Shown piece by piece: positions 3,001 to 27,152 of a stretch of DNA of 64,000 nucleotides (within the stretch, counting starts at the first letter, position 1; each line of letters starts with the position of its first letter). The notes under the pieces are model-generated. The model had not been told where the DNA came from. It did not search any database and saw only the letters and a list, made by a program, of their open reading frames with translations. Made by a program: the position numbers and the translations under genes. Source of the DNA: Kutzneria viridogrisea. Lineage in GTDB: Bacteria > Actinomycetota > Actinomycetes > Mycobacteriales > Pseudonocardiaceae. The stretch covers positions 682,001 through 746,000 of the forward strand of contig JACJID010000004.1 of the NCBI GenBank assembly GCA_014138725.1. Direction: 5' to 3'.

Positions 3001-3933
3001 CGCCTGGTACCGCAGCTTCGGGTACGCCAGCCCGGACTGGACCGCCTGCAACCGCACCGGGACCGGCACGATTCCCGTGCGGTGCCACAGCCGCTGTGGC
3101 AGCGGCTGCACGATCGCCACCGGCCCGTGGGCGCTCCAGGTGGTCAGCAGCTCACTCATCGCCCCGGACCGCCAGCCCGCGGCCACGCAGTCGCTGAACA
3201 GCAGCACCAGTCGGCGCCCGCTGGGGTCGAGCAGTTCGCGCGGGCTGCGCGCGGGCGCACCGGACGGGGCGCTCGCCTTGCGCAGCACCGGTTGCGCCGC
3301 ACCGGTGTCCATCTCCCACACCCGCACGTCGCGGAACGCGCCCATGCGCTCCAGCAGCACGCGCAGTTCCCCGGCGGCACGGCGCCAGATCCGCATCGAG
3401 GCGCCGGCGTCCACCACCAGTGCCACGTCCAGCCAGCGCGTCATCTCCGGTGTGCGCTCGGGCAGCCACACCCCCGTGTCGGCGATGCGCGCGGCGGTGG
3501 CGTCCTCGTCCACGACCAGCGACCGCGCGTCGGGCACCCGGCGCTTGAGCGGTCGCAGCGCCCTGGACAGCCCCAGCTTCTCCGGTACGGCCGGGGCGGC
3601 CGGGCTGAGCAGCCGAAGGCCGCTGACCCGGTCACCGGCTTCCCGGCCGGGCAGGTGCACGGCGGCCGATGAGCCGGGGACCTGCGAGGCGCCCGGCGCG
3701 GGACGGCCCGCACCACTGCCGGTGGGCTCGCGCCGACTGGCACCGGTACCCGGTTCGGCCTCGGACTCGGCGGGCTGCTCGGGCCGCGGCTCCTGCTGCC
3801 GCGCCGGAGGCTCGCCGGGGCCGGCGGGCTCGGACCGGTCGAGGTGACCGGCCAGCCACAGCGCGTCGGCCAGTTCCTCACCGCTGAGCTGCACGCGGGC
3901 GGCGGCCAGTGCGGCGACCAGCTCGCCGAGCAT
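1..3933 (-). CDS. vWA-TIR-WD40 repeat protein (SAV_2336-like), partial at left edge
   Basis: 1311 codons are visible and the frame is open to the window edge, so the C-terminus is missing. The start ATG at 3933 overlaps the upstream stop as TGATG. Residues 1-40 resemble the SAV_2336 N-terminus, followed by a Pro/Glu-rich linker. Residues about 160-300 form a vWA-like region (WLDVALVVDAGASM; the MIDAS is degenerate, DxGxS). Residues 575-728 read as a TIR domain: EVCLSYHPRDLPWAEWL, then a GEAW motif holding the expected catalytic Glu of NAD-cleaving TIRs, ending PPPPYPG. From about 735 onward there are at least 10 WD40 blades with repeated ASGxADGxxRLW motifs. It is probably the effector/sensor of a vWA-MoxR-VMAP conflict system. 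Domain calls are by eye; catalytic activity is inferred. Confidence 0.85.
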   Translation of the reverse strand, partial: MLGELVAALAAARVQLSGEELADALWLAGHLDRSEPAGPGEPPARQQEPRPEQPAESEAEPGTGASRREPTGSGAGRPAPGASQVPGSSAAVHLPGREAGDRVSGLRLLSPAAPAVPEKLGLSRALRPLKRRVPDARSLVVDEDATAARIADTGVWLPERTPEMTRWLDVALVVDAGASMRIWRRAAGELRVLLERMGAFRDVRVWEMDTGAAQPVLRKASAPSGAPARSPRELLDPSGRRLVLLFSDCVAAGWRSGAMSELLTTWSAHGPVAIVQPLPQRLWHRTGIVPVPVRLQAVQSGLAYPKLRYQARNQGFGAEELSGTPVPVMELDARWISQWAGLVSGDNRGWVNGVVMLAGDRQAEEPLRQPDVAPSSPLERVQAFRSSASPVAFSLAAYLSAAPLSLPVMRLVQQTMLPDSRPAHLAEVFLGQLLQRIGPEQTGEHPDEVEYDFHPGVRETLLGTLRRTEALRVFGMVSEYVAARMGQPLDFAAMLADPFGHGGPLIGAGSRPFASVVHSVLEALGPPYAQAARRWSELLPTEDGAEHSPSVELTPLDAVEGEEPLEEAPATVPVPTEVCLSYHPRDLPWAEWLRWELDRLGYAVVIRPLAEVSSPDGLRRLAAEALEHGRFVVSVISAGTVALPYAGEAWLQALLDSPGSGLRVLACTVHAGLLLQEMVERIDGATFEDRDARTALSSIVDCLRRAGARPARQGPPELLRLPPPPYPGDDTHLAGPGAQGPVWVLAEVRSAERALLARGGADGAVRLIDVPTGQTVRTLAGHTGPVRVLATIAARPGEEHTLIASGGVDGIVRTWELATGVLLKETRFLEGEVWALVAVRSGDRTYLAGTGAGSTIQLWDPESGQRLRTLTRRGGRVWALAAVPFGERELLASGSADGTIRLWDTDTSVVLRTIQAHRSTVWALATITVAGQTLLASGGADGMIHLWNPRSGALVNSFVGHVSTIRTLAVVPTPEGELLASGSADSTVRLWNPHTGNDGVQHRFGHHTGEVWAMAPVEVGGRVHLASGGVDGTIRLADPVTFQTDELQSVRSSAVWALASVQLPDRTLLASGALDGAVHLHELSSYAEERTLTGHRSTIRALAAVPGPGPVLLATGSADGTVRVWDADTGEHLSTRAEHTGEVWTVAPLLIAGERHLSSGSADGTIRVWPVDRSGPTTVLRGPNAEIASLVAFEGLAGALLVSADSDGRVLMWDPVSGEVHRRLGSELAGVVALTVVQERLAAGCQDGTIALCDPDGSVRLLDGGTGYVGAMAPVRVGGRLLLASGGFGGVVQFWDVREGRLAGSFHAHAG

Positions 3934-6741: not shown

Positions 6742-7842
6742 TCACAGGCCGCGTGCGGTCGACCAATCCGCGTAGAACAGACCGAGGCCGAACAGGCAGC
6801 AGGTCGCCGACAACAACCAGAAGCGGATGATGACCGTGGTTTCCGGCCAGCCGCCGAGTTCGAAGTGGTGGTGGAATGGCGCCATTCGGAACAATCGTCG
6901 CCGACTCGTGCGGAACACCACGACCTGCAGGCCCACCGACAGGACCTCGACCACGAACAGGCCGCCGATGATGACCATCAGCAGCTCGGTGCGGCTGACC
7001 ACGGACAACCCGGCGACCAGTCCGCCCAGCGCCAGCGAGCCCGTGTCGCCCATGAAGATCTTGGCCGGGGCCGCGTTCCACCACAGGAAGCCGACGCACC
7101 CCGCCATGGCCGCCGCGGCCACCACCGCCACGTCCAGCGGGTCGCGCACCTCGTAGCAGCCCGGCACCGACTTCAGGCAGGTGTTGTGGAACTGCCAGAA
7201 CGAGATGATCACGTACGTGGCCAGCACCATCGCCGAGGTGCCCCCGGCCAGCCCGTCCAGGCCGTCGGTCAGGTTCACCGCGTTCGACCAGGCGCCGACC
7301 ACGAGGTAGCAGAAGACCACGAAGCCGACCAGGCCGAAGGAGATCGTGCCCAGGTCGCGGATGAACGACAGGTCCAGCGAGGCCGGGGTCAGCCCGCGGT
7401 CGTCGGCGAAGCGCACCGCCAGCACCGCGAAGACCACCGCCGAGAGCAGCTGCCCGACCAGCTTCGCCGTCTTGTTCAGGCCCAGGTTGCGCTGCTTGCG
7501 GATCTTGATGAAGTCGTCCAGGAAGCCGACCAGCCCCAGCGAGGTGGTCAGCAGCAACAGCAGCAGCCCGGAGACCGTCGGCGGCTCGGCCGAGTCCGCC
7601 AGCAGCATCACCAGGTGCGCCGCCAGGTAGCCCGCCCACATCGCCACCAGGATCGCCACGCCGCCCATCGTGGGCGTGCCGCGCTTGGACTTGTGGCTGC
7701 TCGGGCCCTCCTCTCGGATCTCCTGGCCGAAGCCCTGCCGCGAGAAGACCCGGATCAGGTAGGGCGTCAGCAGCACCGACACCACCAGTGCCACGACCGC
7801 GGCCACCGAGGCCAGCCCGGCCGCCACGAAGACGTTGTTCAT
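6742..7842 (-). CDS. mraY: Phospho-N-acetylmuramoyl-pentapeptide-transferase (MraY)
   Basis: 366 aa from the ATG at 7842 (MNNVFVAAG). It makes lipid I by transferring phospho-MurNAc-pentapeptide from UDP to undecaprenyl phosphate at the inner membrane face. About ten hydrophobic segments are present, with the family motifs FLDDFIK (Asp pair), [27 protein letters not shown] and the C-terminal [13 protein letters not shown]. Length and motifs are normal, so it should be active. Unlike the usual arrangement it is not next to mur, fts or ddl genes, so it may be a second copy outside the dcw cluster, but that cannot be decided from this window. Confidence 0.95.
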
Positions 7843-7880
7843 CGCCGGTGATCGTACTGAGCGGACCGGCACGACGGCGC

Positions 7881-7939
7881 GGTGTCGTGAAAGTGCCGTT
7901 TGCGACACTAGATGTCTCGAACGGCACTTTCACGACACC
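7881..7939. repeat. Palindromic repeat, family A, copy 1
   Basis: Arms of 20 bp (GGTGTCGTGAAAGTGCCGTT and its exact reverse complement) flank a 19-bp centre. The core GAAAGTGCCGTT...AACGGCACTTTC recurs, with variants, at 39081, 55188, 55286, 55907, 55973 and 56054. Some frames read as a short KVPFxT...NGTFMT peptide, but this is a by-product of the repeat. Confidence 0.8.
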
Positions 7940-7975
7940 GCCCAGCGCCGGGGCAGGGGCGCGGGCGCTGGGCGA

Positions 7976-24014: not shown

Positions 24015-24596
24015 TTACGAACGCTTCCCTGACGACTCGACGCCGTACCGGAGCAGGACAACGCCGTTGCCGAAGACCCGCGTGCCGAGCAGCCGGAGGT
24101 CCGTCCTGTCCGCACCCGGTCGGAACAGCGGCCTGCCACGGCCGAGCAGGACGGGGTGCACGTAGACCCGGTACTCGTCGACCAGGCCGTGCGCGCGGAA
24201 GGACGCACCGAGTTCCGCCCCGCCGACCACCATGTCACCGCCCGGCAGCGCCTTGAGCTCCTGGACCTGCGCAACGTCGAGCTCGCGCAGGATCGTGGTG
24301 TTCCAGTCGGCGTGCCGCAGGGTCCGCGAGTACACGTACTTGGGCATGGTCCGCCAGATGCGCGCGAACTCCGCCTCCGGGGCGCTTGCCGCCGGGTCCT
24401 CGTCGGCGGTCGGCCAGTAGGCGGCCATCAGCTCGTGGGTGACCCGCCCGTCCAGGAAGGCGCTCATCGCGGCGAGTTCCTCGTTGAAGTGGCCGTGCAG
24501 CTCCTCGTCGACCAGGTGCCAGTCCAGTTCGCGGTCCGGCCCCTCGAAGAAGCCGTCCAGCGAGACCGAACTCATCACGATGACGCGCCGCACCAC
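24015..24596 (-). CDS. Dihydrofolate reductase family protein (RibD C-terminal-like)
   Basis: 193 aa from a GTG at 24596. It begins RRVIVMSSVSLDGFFEGPD and carries the family motifs MPKYVYSRTL, ALPGGDMVVGGAELGASFRAHGLVDEY and HPVLLGRGRPLF. These proteins bind NADPH in a DHFR-like fold; the natural substrate is generally unknown. It lies 12 bp downstream of the STAND ATPase gene on the same strand. A second family member is at 40827-41378. Confidence 0.88.
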   Translation of the reverse strand: MVRRVIVMSSVSLDGFFEGPDRELDWHLVDEELHGHFNEELAAMSAFLDGRVTHELMAAYWPTADEDPAASAPEAEFARIWRTMPKYVYSRTLRHADWNTTILRELDVAQVQELKALPGGDMVVGGAELGASFRAHGLVDEYRVYVHPVLLGRGRPLFRPGADRTDLRLLGTRVFGNGVVLLRYGVESSGKRS

Positions 24597-24608: not shown

Positions 24609-26633
24609 CTAACCGACCCCGAGCACCCGTTCGAAGGCCGCGATCGCCTCCTCCGAGGTGCCGACGAACTGCGCCTTCATCGAACGGCCACCGATGTTGA
24701 CGATCAGCTCGCCGGTCCCGTCCTGGCCGGGGGACAGCAGGTAGGCGCTGTCGGTGCCGGGGATCTGCGCCTGCTGGATGCCCGGGATGTCCGAACCGGT
24801 GTCGACCGCCGGGATGACGCCCACCAGCAACTGCCACTGCCCCTTCAGGTAGACGCACACCACCGAGCCCGGCATCTTCTTCTCCAGCAACGGTTCTCTG
24901 CCGTCGAAGCTGCCGAAGAACGGGTCGGTGGGGCAGTCCGCCGGGAGCACGCCCTTGCGCTGACCGGCGGTTGTGCTGGCGGTCTGCGGGGTTGTCGTCG
25001 ACCGCGTCGGCAGCGCCCCGGACTGGCTGGCGGGCCTGAGGCTGGTGACGGCGAAGTACCCGCCGAGCAGCACACCCGCCACGACCAGGCCCGCGACGGC
25101 GAGCTTGGCGCCGAGCCCGAACCCCGCCTTGGCCGCCGTCGTGACGGGCGCGGCGGGGGTACCCGTGACGGGCGCCGGGCTCGCGGCGCTGGCCGTGCCG
25201 CTGACCTGGATCGTGCCGAGGTGGCCGAGCAGTGAGGCGGTCTGCTGGGCCAGCGCGGCCTGCGCGGTGTTGCCCAGCTCGGTCCAGAGCGCGACCGCCG
25301 TCGCGATGGCCGCCGCCGCGACGGCCCGCTTGCCGGTGACCAGCGCGTGCACCCCGCCCTCGTGGGTCAGGTAGGCCAGGGTCGCGCGATCACCGGCCAG
25401 TTCCGCGGCGGCCCGGCCCCGGTCGAGGATCTGCTCCCAGGCGCCCAGCCGCGCGGAGCAGGCCGCGACCGGGGCGAGGGCCCTGGCCAGCAGCGCGCCG
25501 AGATCGGGGCGGCCCAGCCGGACCGAGGCGTCGATGCATCCGGTGACCAGCGTGGCGTTCGCGGCGATCAGTGCGGGCGGCAGCTGGCGGCAGCACTCGC
25601 GCAGCCGCCCGGCGATCCACTCCAGCTGGCCGATGCCGCCGACCAGGTCCGCGCGCACACCGGGCGCGAGCCCCCAGCCCCGCTCGGACACGAGGACCAC
25701 GCCGTGCGCGGTCACCTCGCCGAGCGTGGCGTTGAGCGGACCCGGGTCGCTGACGAGCCAGGGCACCAGCGCCTCCGACACAGGCGCGTCGGCCAGTGCC
25801 AGCACCGACACGAGTTCGCGGGCCGGTGCGGTCAACCCAGCGAGCACTCGCGGCAGGAGCTCCGCCAACTCGGCGGCCCGGGGCAGCACGAGTGCGCCGT
25901 CCGGACCTGGTCGGGCGCTCGCGGCGGCGCGGAGCAGCAGCAACGGCGAGCCGTCCGCGGCACGCCACAACTGAGCGAGGTCAAGCAGTTCGTGCTCGGC
26001 GAGCGAACGGTTCAGCACGGTGCCCAGCAGGGTGCAGGCCGGTTCCCAAGCCAGGCCGGACAGTTCCTGCGCGTACCCGTCCGTCCACAGTGCACGCCGC
26101 ACCGAGGTGAAGGCCACTGCCGCGTCAGGGACCCCGTCGAGCAGTTCCTCGCGCTGCTCGGCCGTCAACTCCAGGTCATCGACCAGCACCAGAACGTCCA
26201 CACCGGACATGAGCCGCCGTATCTCCACAGTGGACGGCCGATAGCCCGCCGTGTCGTAGCACGCCTCGAACACGTCCTGGAGCAGGTCCGGCACACCCCG
26301 GTGGGCCGCCGACAGGAACACCACGGACCGGCCTAATCCAGCGATGTCCCCTGCGGCGTAACGGAAAAGCGTGCTCTTGCCCACGCCGGGCGGGCCGTGC
26401 AACTGCACCAGCCGAGCCGCCTGCAACGCCCCGCGCAGCGCGTCCAGGTCCTGTTCCCGGCCGATCGGCCGCGCGGGATGGCGTGGCAGCAGGCTGATCG
26501 CCGGGCGGCGCACCGGCTGTGGGCGCTGTGCGGGCAGTGTCAGGCTGACCACCGACTGCTCCGCCCACACCGTGATGTTGTGGTCCCCCACCACGAGTTG
26601 GCCGACCACGTCCCCGCCGACGTGCACGTCCAC
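24609..26633 (-). CDS. Membrane-anchored STAND/NLR-like NTPase with N-terminal RHIM/amyloid-like motif
   Basis: 674 aa from a GTG at 26633. Residues 4-22 hold VHVGGDVVGQLVVGDHN, resembling the VxVGxxN core of RHIM and bacterial amyloid signalling motifs. A STAND-type NTPase follows: RPIGREQDLDAL, Walker A GPPGVGKST (80-88), Walker B DVLVLVDDLEL (about 145) and a winged-helix/helical arm. No WD40 or TPR array follows. Instead there is one TM (about 510-532), a Thr/Ser/Gln linker and a 115-residue extracytoplasmic domain with two Cys (PADCPTD, VVCVYLKG). The preceding gene encodes a small protein with a near-identical N-terminal motif, so the two are likely partners. The function is inferred. 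Confidence 0.75.
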   Translation of the reverse strand: MDVHVGGDVVGQLVVGDHNITVWAEQSVVSLTLPAQRPQPVRRPAISLLPRHPARPIGREQDLDALRGALQAARLVQLHGPPGVGKSTLFRYAAGDIAGLGRSVVFLSAAHRGVPDLLQDVFEACYDTAGYRPSTVEIRRLMSGVDVLVLVDDLELTAEQREELLDGVPDAAVAFTSVRRALWTDGYAQELSGLAWEPACTLLGTVLNRSLAEHELLDLAQLWRAADGSPLLLLRAAASARPGPDGALVLPRAAELAELLPRVLAGLTAPARELVSVLALADAPVSEALVPWLVSDPGPLNATLGEVTAHGVVLVSERGWGLAPGVRADLVGGIGQLEWIAGRLRECCRQLPPALIAANATLVTGCIDASVRLGRPDLGALLARALAPVAACSARLGAWEQILDRGRAAAELAGDRATLAYLTHEGGVHALVTGKRAVAAAAIATAVALWTELGNTAQAALAQQTASLLGHLGTIQVSGTASAASPAPVTGTPAAPVTTAAKAGFGLGAKLAVAGLVVAGVLLGGYFAVTSLRPASQSGALPTRSTTTPQTASTTAGQRKGVLPADCPTDPFFGSFDGREPLLEKKMPGSVVCVYLKGQWQLLVGVIPAVDTGSDIPGIQQAQIPGTDSAYLLSPGQDGTGELIVNIGGRSMKAQFVGTSEEAIAAFERVLGVG

Positions 26634-26638
26634 CGGGA

Positions 26639-27016
26639 TCAGCCGAGCCTGCGGGTGAACTCGGCGGCCAACTGCTCCCCGCCCGCCGCGACCAGCTTGG
26701 CCACCACCGGCCCCAGCACGACCTTGTTCAGCGCGCCGAGGAACTGCGGGAGCCTGCGCCGGAACCAGCCCTGCACGTGTTCCACGGTGGGCAGGTCCAC
26801 CTCGCCCCCGGTGAGGGCCTCGTCGAGTTCGTCGATCTTCTGCGCGGCCGCGGGGACCAGTGCCCGCAGCTCGGCAAGTTCGGTACGCAGCCGGGCGAGG
26901 TCCTGCTCGGTCACCGGCTCCGAGGAGCGGACCTGGACGTTGTTGTCACCAACGCTGACCTGACCGCTCACGTCCCCGCCGATGTGCACGTGGTACCCGC
27001 CGTGCCCGTGGGTCAT
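26639..27016 (-). CDS. Small helical protein sharing the STAND N-terminal amyloid-like motif
   Basis: 125 aa from the ATG at 27016 with AGGAG at 5-nt spacing. Residues 10-26 read VHIGGDVSGQVSVGDNN, matching the motif of the adjacent STAND protein at 12 of 17 positions with mostly conservative changes. A long helix (about 33-75, LARLRTELAELRALVPAAAQKIDELDE) is followed by a C-terminal amphipathic or membrane-prone helical pair (FLGALNKVVLGPVVAKLVAAG). This layout fits an effector or signalling partner recruited through the shared motif. The stop is 5 bp before the STAND start, so the pair is cotranscribed. No named family was recognised. Confidence 0.7.
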   Translation of the reverse strand: MTHGHGGYHVHIGGDVSGQVSVGDNNVQVRSSEPVTEQDLARLRTELAELRALVPAAAQKIDELDEALTGGEVDLPTVEHVQGWFRRRLPQFLGALNKVVLGPVVAKLVAAGGEQLAAEFTRRLG

Positions 27017-27120
27017 CTTCGCTCCTGTGGCAGCACAGCCGGAGATTTGTCCCCCACAGGTTCGGGGCCGCATTTGTCCCCGTTAGCCGGGTGCGTCGAG
27101 GTCCACCCGTCCGGACCAGT

Positions 27121-27152
27121 GCGGGGCGGCCGATCGGGCCCGGCCGCCCCGC
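27121..27152 (-). terminator. Hairpin downstream of the secreted sugar dehydrogenase gene
   Basis: An 11-bp perfect stem (GCGGGGCGGCC with its complement) and 10-nt loop lie 8 bp beyond the stop at 27160. It could serve either the secreted dehydrogenase gene or simply separate the two units. Confidence 0.65.

Follow-up and report, generated by a model that had tools for sequence, protein, structure and literature searches.

Two adjacent genes of Kutzneria viridogrisea, lying within the 64,000-nucleotide stretch of contig JACJID010000004.1 that was analysed here (the window), encode a STAND ATPase and a small helical protein whose N-termini carry matching motifs. Related bacteria have the same kind of matched motif with exchangeable partner proteins, and the two proteins are therefore probably a receptor and an effector that signal by motif stacking. 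The reading we favor, with a probability just over one half (about 0.53), is that a membrane STAND receptor would nucleate a cross-beta assembly and thereby gather the helical effector. A literature search found no account of this pair; most subscription journals, including Dyrka et al. (2020), lay outside its scope, and an account may be in print there.

Organization of the gene pair

The features of the two genes are listed in Table 1. The stop codon of the small partner and the start of the STAND gene are separated by 11 nt (5 nt with the alternative GTG). The perfect inverted repeat in front of the pair is, as read from the sequence, likely the terminator of the preceding gene. A RibD_C-domain gene (24015–24596) is present on the same strand, 12 nt behind the STAND gene.

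Table 1. Features of the STAND ATPase and its small partner (positions within the window).
Feature	Position	Strand	Remarks
Small partner, 125 aa	26639–27016	−	Start ATG 27016, stop end 26639; from sequence
Parts of the small partner			N-terminal motif (residues 10–26), variable linker, C-terminal six-helix domain (residues 37–124)
Motif VHIGGDVSGQVSVGDNN of the small partner	26939..26989	−	From sequence
Shine-Dalgarno AGGAG of the small partner	27022–27026	−	From sequence
STAND ATPase, 672 aa	24609–26627	−	Start GTG 26627, alternative GTG 26633
Motif (V/M)HVGGDVVGQLVVGDHN of the STAND	26577..26627	−	Low-confidence strands 8–13 and 16–21 in the AlphaFold model
P-loop GPPGVGKS of the STAND	26373..26396	−	G78, G81, G83, and K84 identical across 10 sequences, counting that of the window
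Predicted transmembrane helix of the STAND, residues 509–529	25041..25103	−	Mean Kyte-Doolittle 1.99
Predicted extracytoplasmic beta-rich domain of the STAND, residues about 580–672	24612..24890	−	AlphaFold model
Perfect 11-bp inverted repeat	27121..27152		Between the pair and the preceding gene; from sequence

Matching N-terminal motifs and their specificity

The first 45 residues of the small partner and of the STAND aligned with a BLOSUM62 score of 76, which was reached by none of 20,000 shuffles (shuffle mean 21.8, maximum 51). When the first 60 residues of the 58 heuristically called window genes were compared, the small partner and the STAND ranked first among 1653 gene pairs with a score of 78. 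The motifs quoted in the original prediction, as well as their match between adjacent genes, were thus confirmed. The runner-up N-terminal likenesses in the window were those of 48765/51411 (score 62) and 54966/55881 (score 59). Across nine small-partner sequences, that of the window included, residues G18, G23, and N26 of the motif were invariant. A regular expression modelled on motifs already seen matched 35 times in 574,256 six-frame residues from 26 records: 28 of the matches were located at STANDs or their partners, one at a further small ORF (L081), and six were unrelated. It gauges specificity only, because several true motifs (e.g., both of L033) were missed. The motif is short, and glycine/valine patterns arise easily, so that a chance likeness or a generic leader without joint function might be considered; the shuffle and window-wide tests, along with the cross-locus test given below, speak against such an origin and already make it highly improbable.

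Fold and predicted topology of the STAND ATPase

The AlphaFold model of the larger protein (mean pLDDT 68.6) had as its top PDB matches the STAND-TPR structure 6mfv (E = 2.8e-12), Apaf-1, CED-4, plant NLRs, and Avs3 (8dgc, E = 1.2e-7), with TM-scores that were low (0.2–0.4) when normalised to the query. Pfam returned only P-loop matches below gathering scores. For the putative anti-phage function named in the original prediction, PADLOC gave two weak P-loop matches for the STAND (E = 0.0036 and 0.009) and none for the small partner. On the basis of the modelled fold and the invariant P-loop, the protein encoded at 24609–26627 is a STAND NTPase, which agrees with its original identification.

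Behind the ATPase, the protein continues with a helical region (residues 332–470), which may hold repeats, followed by a 21-residue hydrophobic stretch, a linker of low model confidence, and a small beta-rich domain. The hydrophobic stretch is modelled as a helix at residues 503–528 with pLDDT below 50, and the pLDDT of the outside-domain block is mostly 52–71 after residue 610. Strong relatives of this domain among 297 genomes of the family were confined to two other such STANDs (five of the 297 genomes matched at E ≤ 0.01, the own genome included).

Hydrophobicity, cysteine density, and K/R content were evaluated for the STANDs of 18 of the 25 loci described below, the helices being called by Kyte-Doolittle hydrophobicity; in L012, the helix taken by the script lies upstream of the stretch that is likely in the membrane. 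Beyond residue 350, the most hydrophobic 21-mer had a mean of at least 1.6 in 16 of the 18 STANDs (1.38 in L079 and 1.5 in L082). The part that follows the predicted membrane helix had the higher cysteine density in 17 of 18, the difference in the window protein being slight (1.18 per 100 before and 1.40 per 100 behind the helix). The charge rule gave a mixed picture, as K/R residues before the helix outnumbered those after it in 10 STANDs, were equal in four (including that of the window), and were fewer in four. Because the ATPase must be inside the cell, the STAND is likely a single-pass protein with its N-terminus inside and its tail predicted to lie outside. Neither the predicted membrane helix and outside domain nor the exchange of partners among loci had formed part of the original prediction.

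The small helical partner

In the AlphaFold model of the small partner, residues 37–124 form six helices with high confidence (pLDDT 82–96 for the block of residues 41–125), and residues 1–31 are unstructured (pLDDT below 50). Modelling of both N-termini, which had been suggested as a check, showed only weak strands on the STAND side. The six-helix C-terminal domain upholds the view of a helical protein in the effector position, and the second half of the protein contains invariant W, F, P, and G residues. The original prediction had further suggested that a C-terminal hairpin of this protein could insert into membranes. The best 19-mer of the C-terminal helices has a borderline mean hydrophobicity of 1.62, which makes such insertion possible. 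In 10 partner sequences, the corresponding means ranged from 1.25 to 2.22 and were at least 1.5 in seven; the BASS3 protein of locus L088 gave 1.56. Judged from these sequence measures, membrane action of the helical domain is plausible. The small partners of L036 and L106 weakly resemble DUF5955 (E = 0.015 and 0.0013, respectively).

Recurrence of the pair

A search of the own genome with profile A1 (E ≤ 0.001) returned only the two window copies. A weaker match (L005, from a set with E-values of 0.1 to 2.8) was spurious, as it overlaps an oppositely coded gene, which we take to be glycosyltransferase-like. The small partner was found in two of seven genomes of the genus and in six of 297 genomes of the family (E ≤ 0.001); among the latter, one locus (L016) is without a STAND and another is interrupted. 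Profile A1 matched nine of 394 genomes of the class, several of these matches being other partner types or weak. A hit of the class search, L037, was rejected since it lies inside a lipoprotein-like gene without a STAND. Named genomes yielded five loci, two of which repeat earlier ones, and a search with the single protein as query found nothing. Among 150 genomes from another family, 14 had a STAND match, and the motif core was present in 11 of these; in a third family, one genome of 35 matched.

The surroundings of 25 distinct STAND loci were read. In 20 of them, both the STAND and a neighbour carry an intact motif (window, L012, L014, L015, L028, L030, L031, L033, L034, L038, L073, L076–L082, L106, and L107); sorted by eye, these 20 loci form 15 clusters of closely related members. 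Not counted as pairs were L083 and L084, which lack the core motif; L085, whose motif is odd and has no counterpart on a partner; L075, which has a motif but no partner that could be seen; and L013/L029 of Saccharothrix sp. ALI-22-I, where frame changes interrupt both genes. A search of 197 genomes matched 16, namely, G000, G397, and 14 others of one genus. From that genus, 15 further loci (L041–L055, one being a second copy in G397) were left out owing to a different N-terminus without the motif; the related STAND is widespread there, with a conserved LVxGDxLLTVNPVDGSE-type stretch replacing the motif. Directly upstream of the pair of a congener, a caspase-WD40 protein is encoded (L012, 4553–6655), at whose N-terminus no motif was seen.

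Exchange of partners among loci

The helical partner of the window type was present in 13 of the 20 loci, the window included. Elsewhere, the position is taken by a TIR protein with a C-terminal motif (L038; PF13676, E = 4.2e-14), a Ser/Thr protein kinase with an N-terminal motif that adjoins the motif STAND (L082, 7410–8333, plus strand; PF00069, E = 2.9e-33), another protein with a C-terminal motif (L107), or other small proteins (L073, L080, and L106). In L081, an unassigned ORF with a C-terminal motif lies beside an ORF taken to be cyclase-like (no Pfam match), and a Crp-like gene is placed between the motif ORF and the STAND. A Crp-like regulator (PF00027, PF13545) stands beside the STAND in both L080 and L081. 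Gene order also varies, both orders as well as divergent (L028, L081) and convergent (L038) arrangements being found. The motif thus persists while the type of partner, the order of the genes, and the position of the motif at the N- or C-terminus change. In L016, L035, and L036, no STAND was present in the stretch read, and a protein of 554–586 aa with a C-terminal motif and two to four membrane-like windows precedes a small protein with an N-terminal motif.

This variability bears on a second explanation, in which the motifs make up a constant dock of finite size, built from beta-strands or as a beta-solenoid, and the small protein is a stable subunit of the STAND, perhaps an inhibitor, with no prion-like templating. 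The layout V-x-V-G-G-D ... V-x-V-G-D-x-N would, in our own reading, also suit a beta-solenoid rung, the STAND model has two short low-confidence strands at the motif, and the close gene spacing suits a fixed complex. However, a modular signal link accounts better for the occurrence of the motif at either end of unrelated domains and for partner genes that lie on the other strand (L028, L038, and L081), and we regard a constant dock as a serious but rather unlikely alternative to motif-templated assembly.

In L080, a 100-aa protein carries an N-terminal motif matching that of the STAND and, by eye, a C-terminus like that of a larger neighbour (7651–7953 and 3106–3918); from its sequence, it is a possible two-motif adaptor. 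The plasmid pair of L106 (6926–7291 and 8034–8498) has strongly co-varying motifs and is accompanied by a further short protein with two similar motif copies. As the L080 protein indicates that adaptors may exist, and as a PDB fold search with the helical domain of the window partner gave no match, this partner too could be an adaptor that passes the signal to a further, unlinked protein instead of acting as the effector. In place of such a second end, the window protein carries a helical domain that is conserved, and the regular expressions saw no third motif gene beside this type of partner, though variants escape them; an adaptor role is accordingly improbable here, and the helical protein is treated below as the effector.

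Co-variation of the motifs within loci

Several loci carry paired variants of the motif, i.e., VGRDMRGPLITGD with VGRNMTGHIVTGD in L079, GGHADGPVVAG with GGNASGPVVAG in L080, and VGGDAIGQFSTGDHNVL with VGGNAVGQLNTGDNNVL in L106, and VGGDNNG occurs on both proteins of L107. Partners were permuted across clusters with one locus taken per cluster. With 15 clusters and 50,000 permutations, the match within loci exceeded that of permuted pairings with p = 2e-5, which equals the permutation floor (z = 6.1); the first 13 clusters had given p = 5e-5 (z = 4.5). Since some partners had been found via the motif itself, the test restricted to the eight clusters whose partner was recognised by its helical domain is of importance, and it gave a median p of 0.003 (range 0.0005 to 0.009; z = 3.0). 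The own partner was ranked first by the STAND in only four of 18 loci (L030, L079, L080, and L082); it was 11th of 18 in L031, ninth of 18 in L034 and L038, 15th of 18 in L073, and seventh of 15 in L033. The motifs therefore match better within a locus than across loci, though not in every locus.

Mobility of the pair

In five congeners with the same flanking genes, the interval contained neither the pair nor the RibD_C gene, another gene being present in four of them and nothing in one; in a sixth, the flank gave no match. The RibD_C gene may have come together with the pair. The congener with a related pair (L012) carries it elsewhere, and another related pair resides on a mobilizable Streptomyces plasmid, with Tn3-family genes next to it. 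Such a patchy, mobile presence fits a role in defence or conflict without proving it.

Proposed mechanism

In the favored reading, the STAND would be a membrane protein whose ATPase lies inside the cell and whose C-terminal domain is exposed to the outside. An envelope signal would induce nucleotide exchange and oligomerisation of the STAND in an Apaf-1-like manner, and the N-terminal motifs, brought together in the oligomer, would form a seed of cross-beta or beta-solenoid type. The small partner, in the cytosol, would join this seed through its own matching motif, which is unfolded when the monomer is modelled, and the helical domains concentrated in this way would become active, most likely against the membrane. 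The computations establish the match of the motifs, their recurrence and co-variation within loci, the STAND fold, and the exchange of partners; the membrane topology is a prediction, and oligomerisation, templating, the signal, and killing are inferences.

More tentatively, and with doubt prevailing, these loci could represent an actinomycete family of envelope-spanning STANDs that respond to signals from outside by building cross-beta assemblies in the cytosol via a RHIM-/BASS3-like motif, with plug-in outputs comprising a helical killer, a TIR enzyme, a Ser/Thr kinase (as the bacterial equivalent of the RIPK necrosome), and adaptors with two motifs that hand the signal to a second motif type. 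The role of microbial amyloid-type NLR cascades is named a blind spot in the part of a review available to us (PMC7889193). An outside sensor, if true, would offer an accessible ligand-binding domain for testing, and the specificity of cross-seeding could be studied directly with the matched natural motif pairs of the 15 clusters. A kinase in the partner position would parallel animal necroptosis.

Comparison with known systems

The pair consists of adjacent genes with a common motif, placed at the N-terminus on the NLR side, as in a BASS pair, and this motif may form amyloid. A search of 35 genomes with the BASS3 peptide of Frankia gave matches in two. In L088, a small protein with a C-terminal motif, which from its motif and layout we take to be a Bell protein, lies beside an ORF with an N-terminal motif near the contig end; L089 encodes a large ATPase-like protein with an N-terminal motif and, by eye, WD40-like repeats at its end. 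Alignment of the small partner with the L088 protein by hhalign covered only the motif (E = 0.008, probability just 4.9%), as did BLASTP apart from a three-residue match. Homology to the Bell domain was rejected on this one Bell-type sequence, the motif of the small partner being N-terminal and no likeness being seen outside it; the L107 partner, with its C-terminal motif, likewise had no BLASTP similarity to the L088 protein. The BASS3 peptide, for which FTIR is reported in the available part of PMC8086366 to show a cross-beta structure, resembled the small-partner motif with a shuffle p of 4e-4 and that of the STAND weakly (p = 0.044). As far as BASS3 pairs are described in the accessible portions of PMC7889193, PMC8086366, and PMC12261475, they share with the window pair an NLR-type ATPase that carries its motif at the N-terminus and is encoded beside a motif-sharing gene, the V-x-V-G-D-x-N core, and a small helical partner. 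Unlike these, the partner in the window has its motif at the N-terminus and no detectable Bell domain, the motif has about two more residues before the core and no core Q, and the STAND is predicted to have a membrane helix and an outside domain. The L089 NLR, by comparison, ends in WD40-like repeats, as judged by eye. From its sequence, the motif probably works like the BASS3 type, from which it may descend, and it is a candidate member of that family.

The original prediction had called the motif RHIM-like. The resemblance to BASS3, a RHIM-related bacterial family, was retained, but the RHIM core tetrad (V/I)-Q-(V/I/L/C)-G, as given in the part of PMC9444067 available, was not found: the window motifs read V-S-V-G and L-V-V-G and are without the core Q. 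Pfam RHIM matched neither window protein at E ≤ 1 (HMMER filters drop most matches above 0.1) and gave a sub-threshold match to the BASS3 protein of L088 (E = 0.043). A short V-rich core ending in G is shared with the mammalian RHIM proteins RIPK1 and RIPK3 and with the fungal PP motif, and in the relative L082 a Ser/Thr kinase bears such a motif, a layout that recalls the RIPK kinases.

The anti-phage STANDs Avs and bNACHT have the STAND fold in common with the window protein (Avs3, 8dgc), which differs from them by its lack of an N-terminal enzyme and by its predicted membrane anchor and outside domain. STANDs with effector-associated domains, as described in the accessible part of PMC8195603, similarly carry a homotypic module on both the STAND and separate effectors, the module there being an alpha-helical domain in contrast to the strand motif of about 20 residues here. 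Outside sensors have already been proposed for some STANDs, since DGR-diversified STANDs, according to the portion of PMC10907252 available, include some that are predicted to reach the periplasm.
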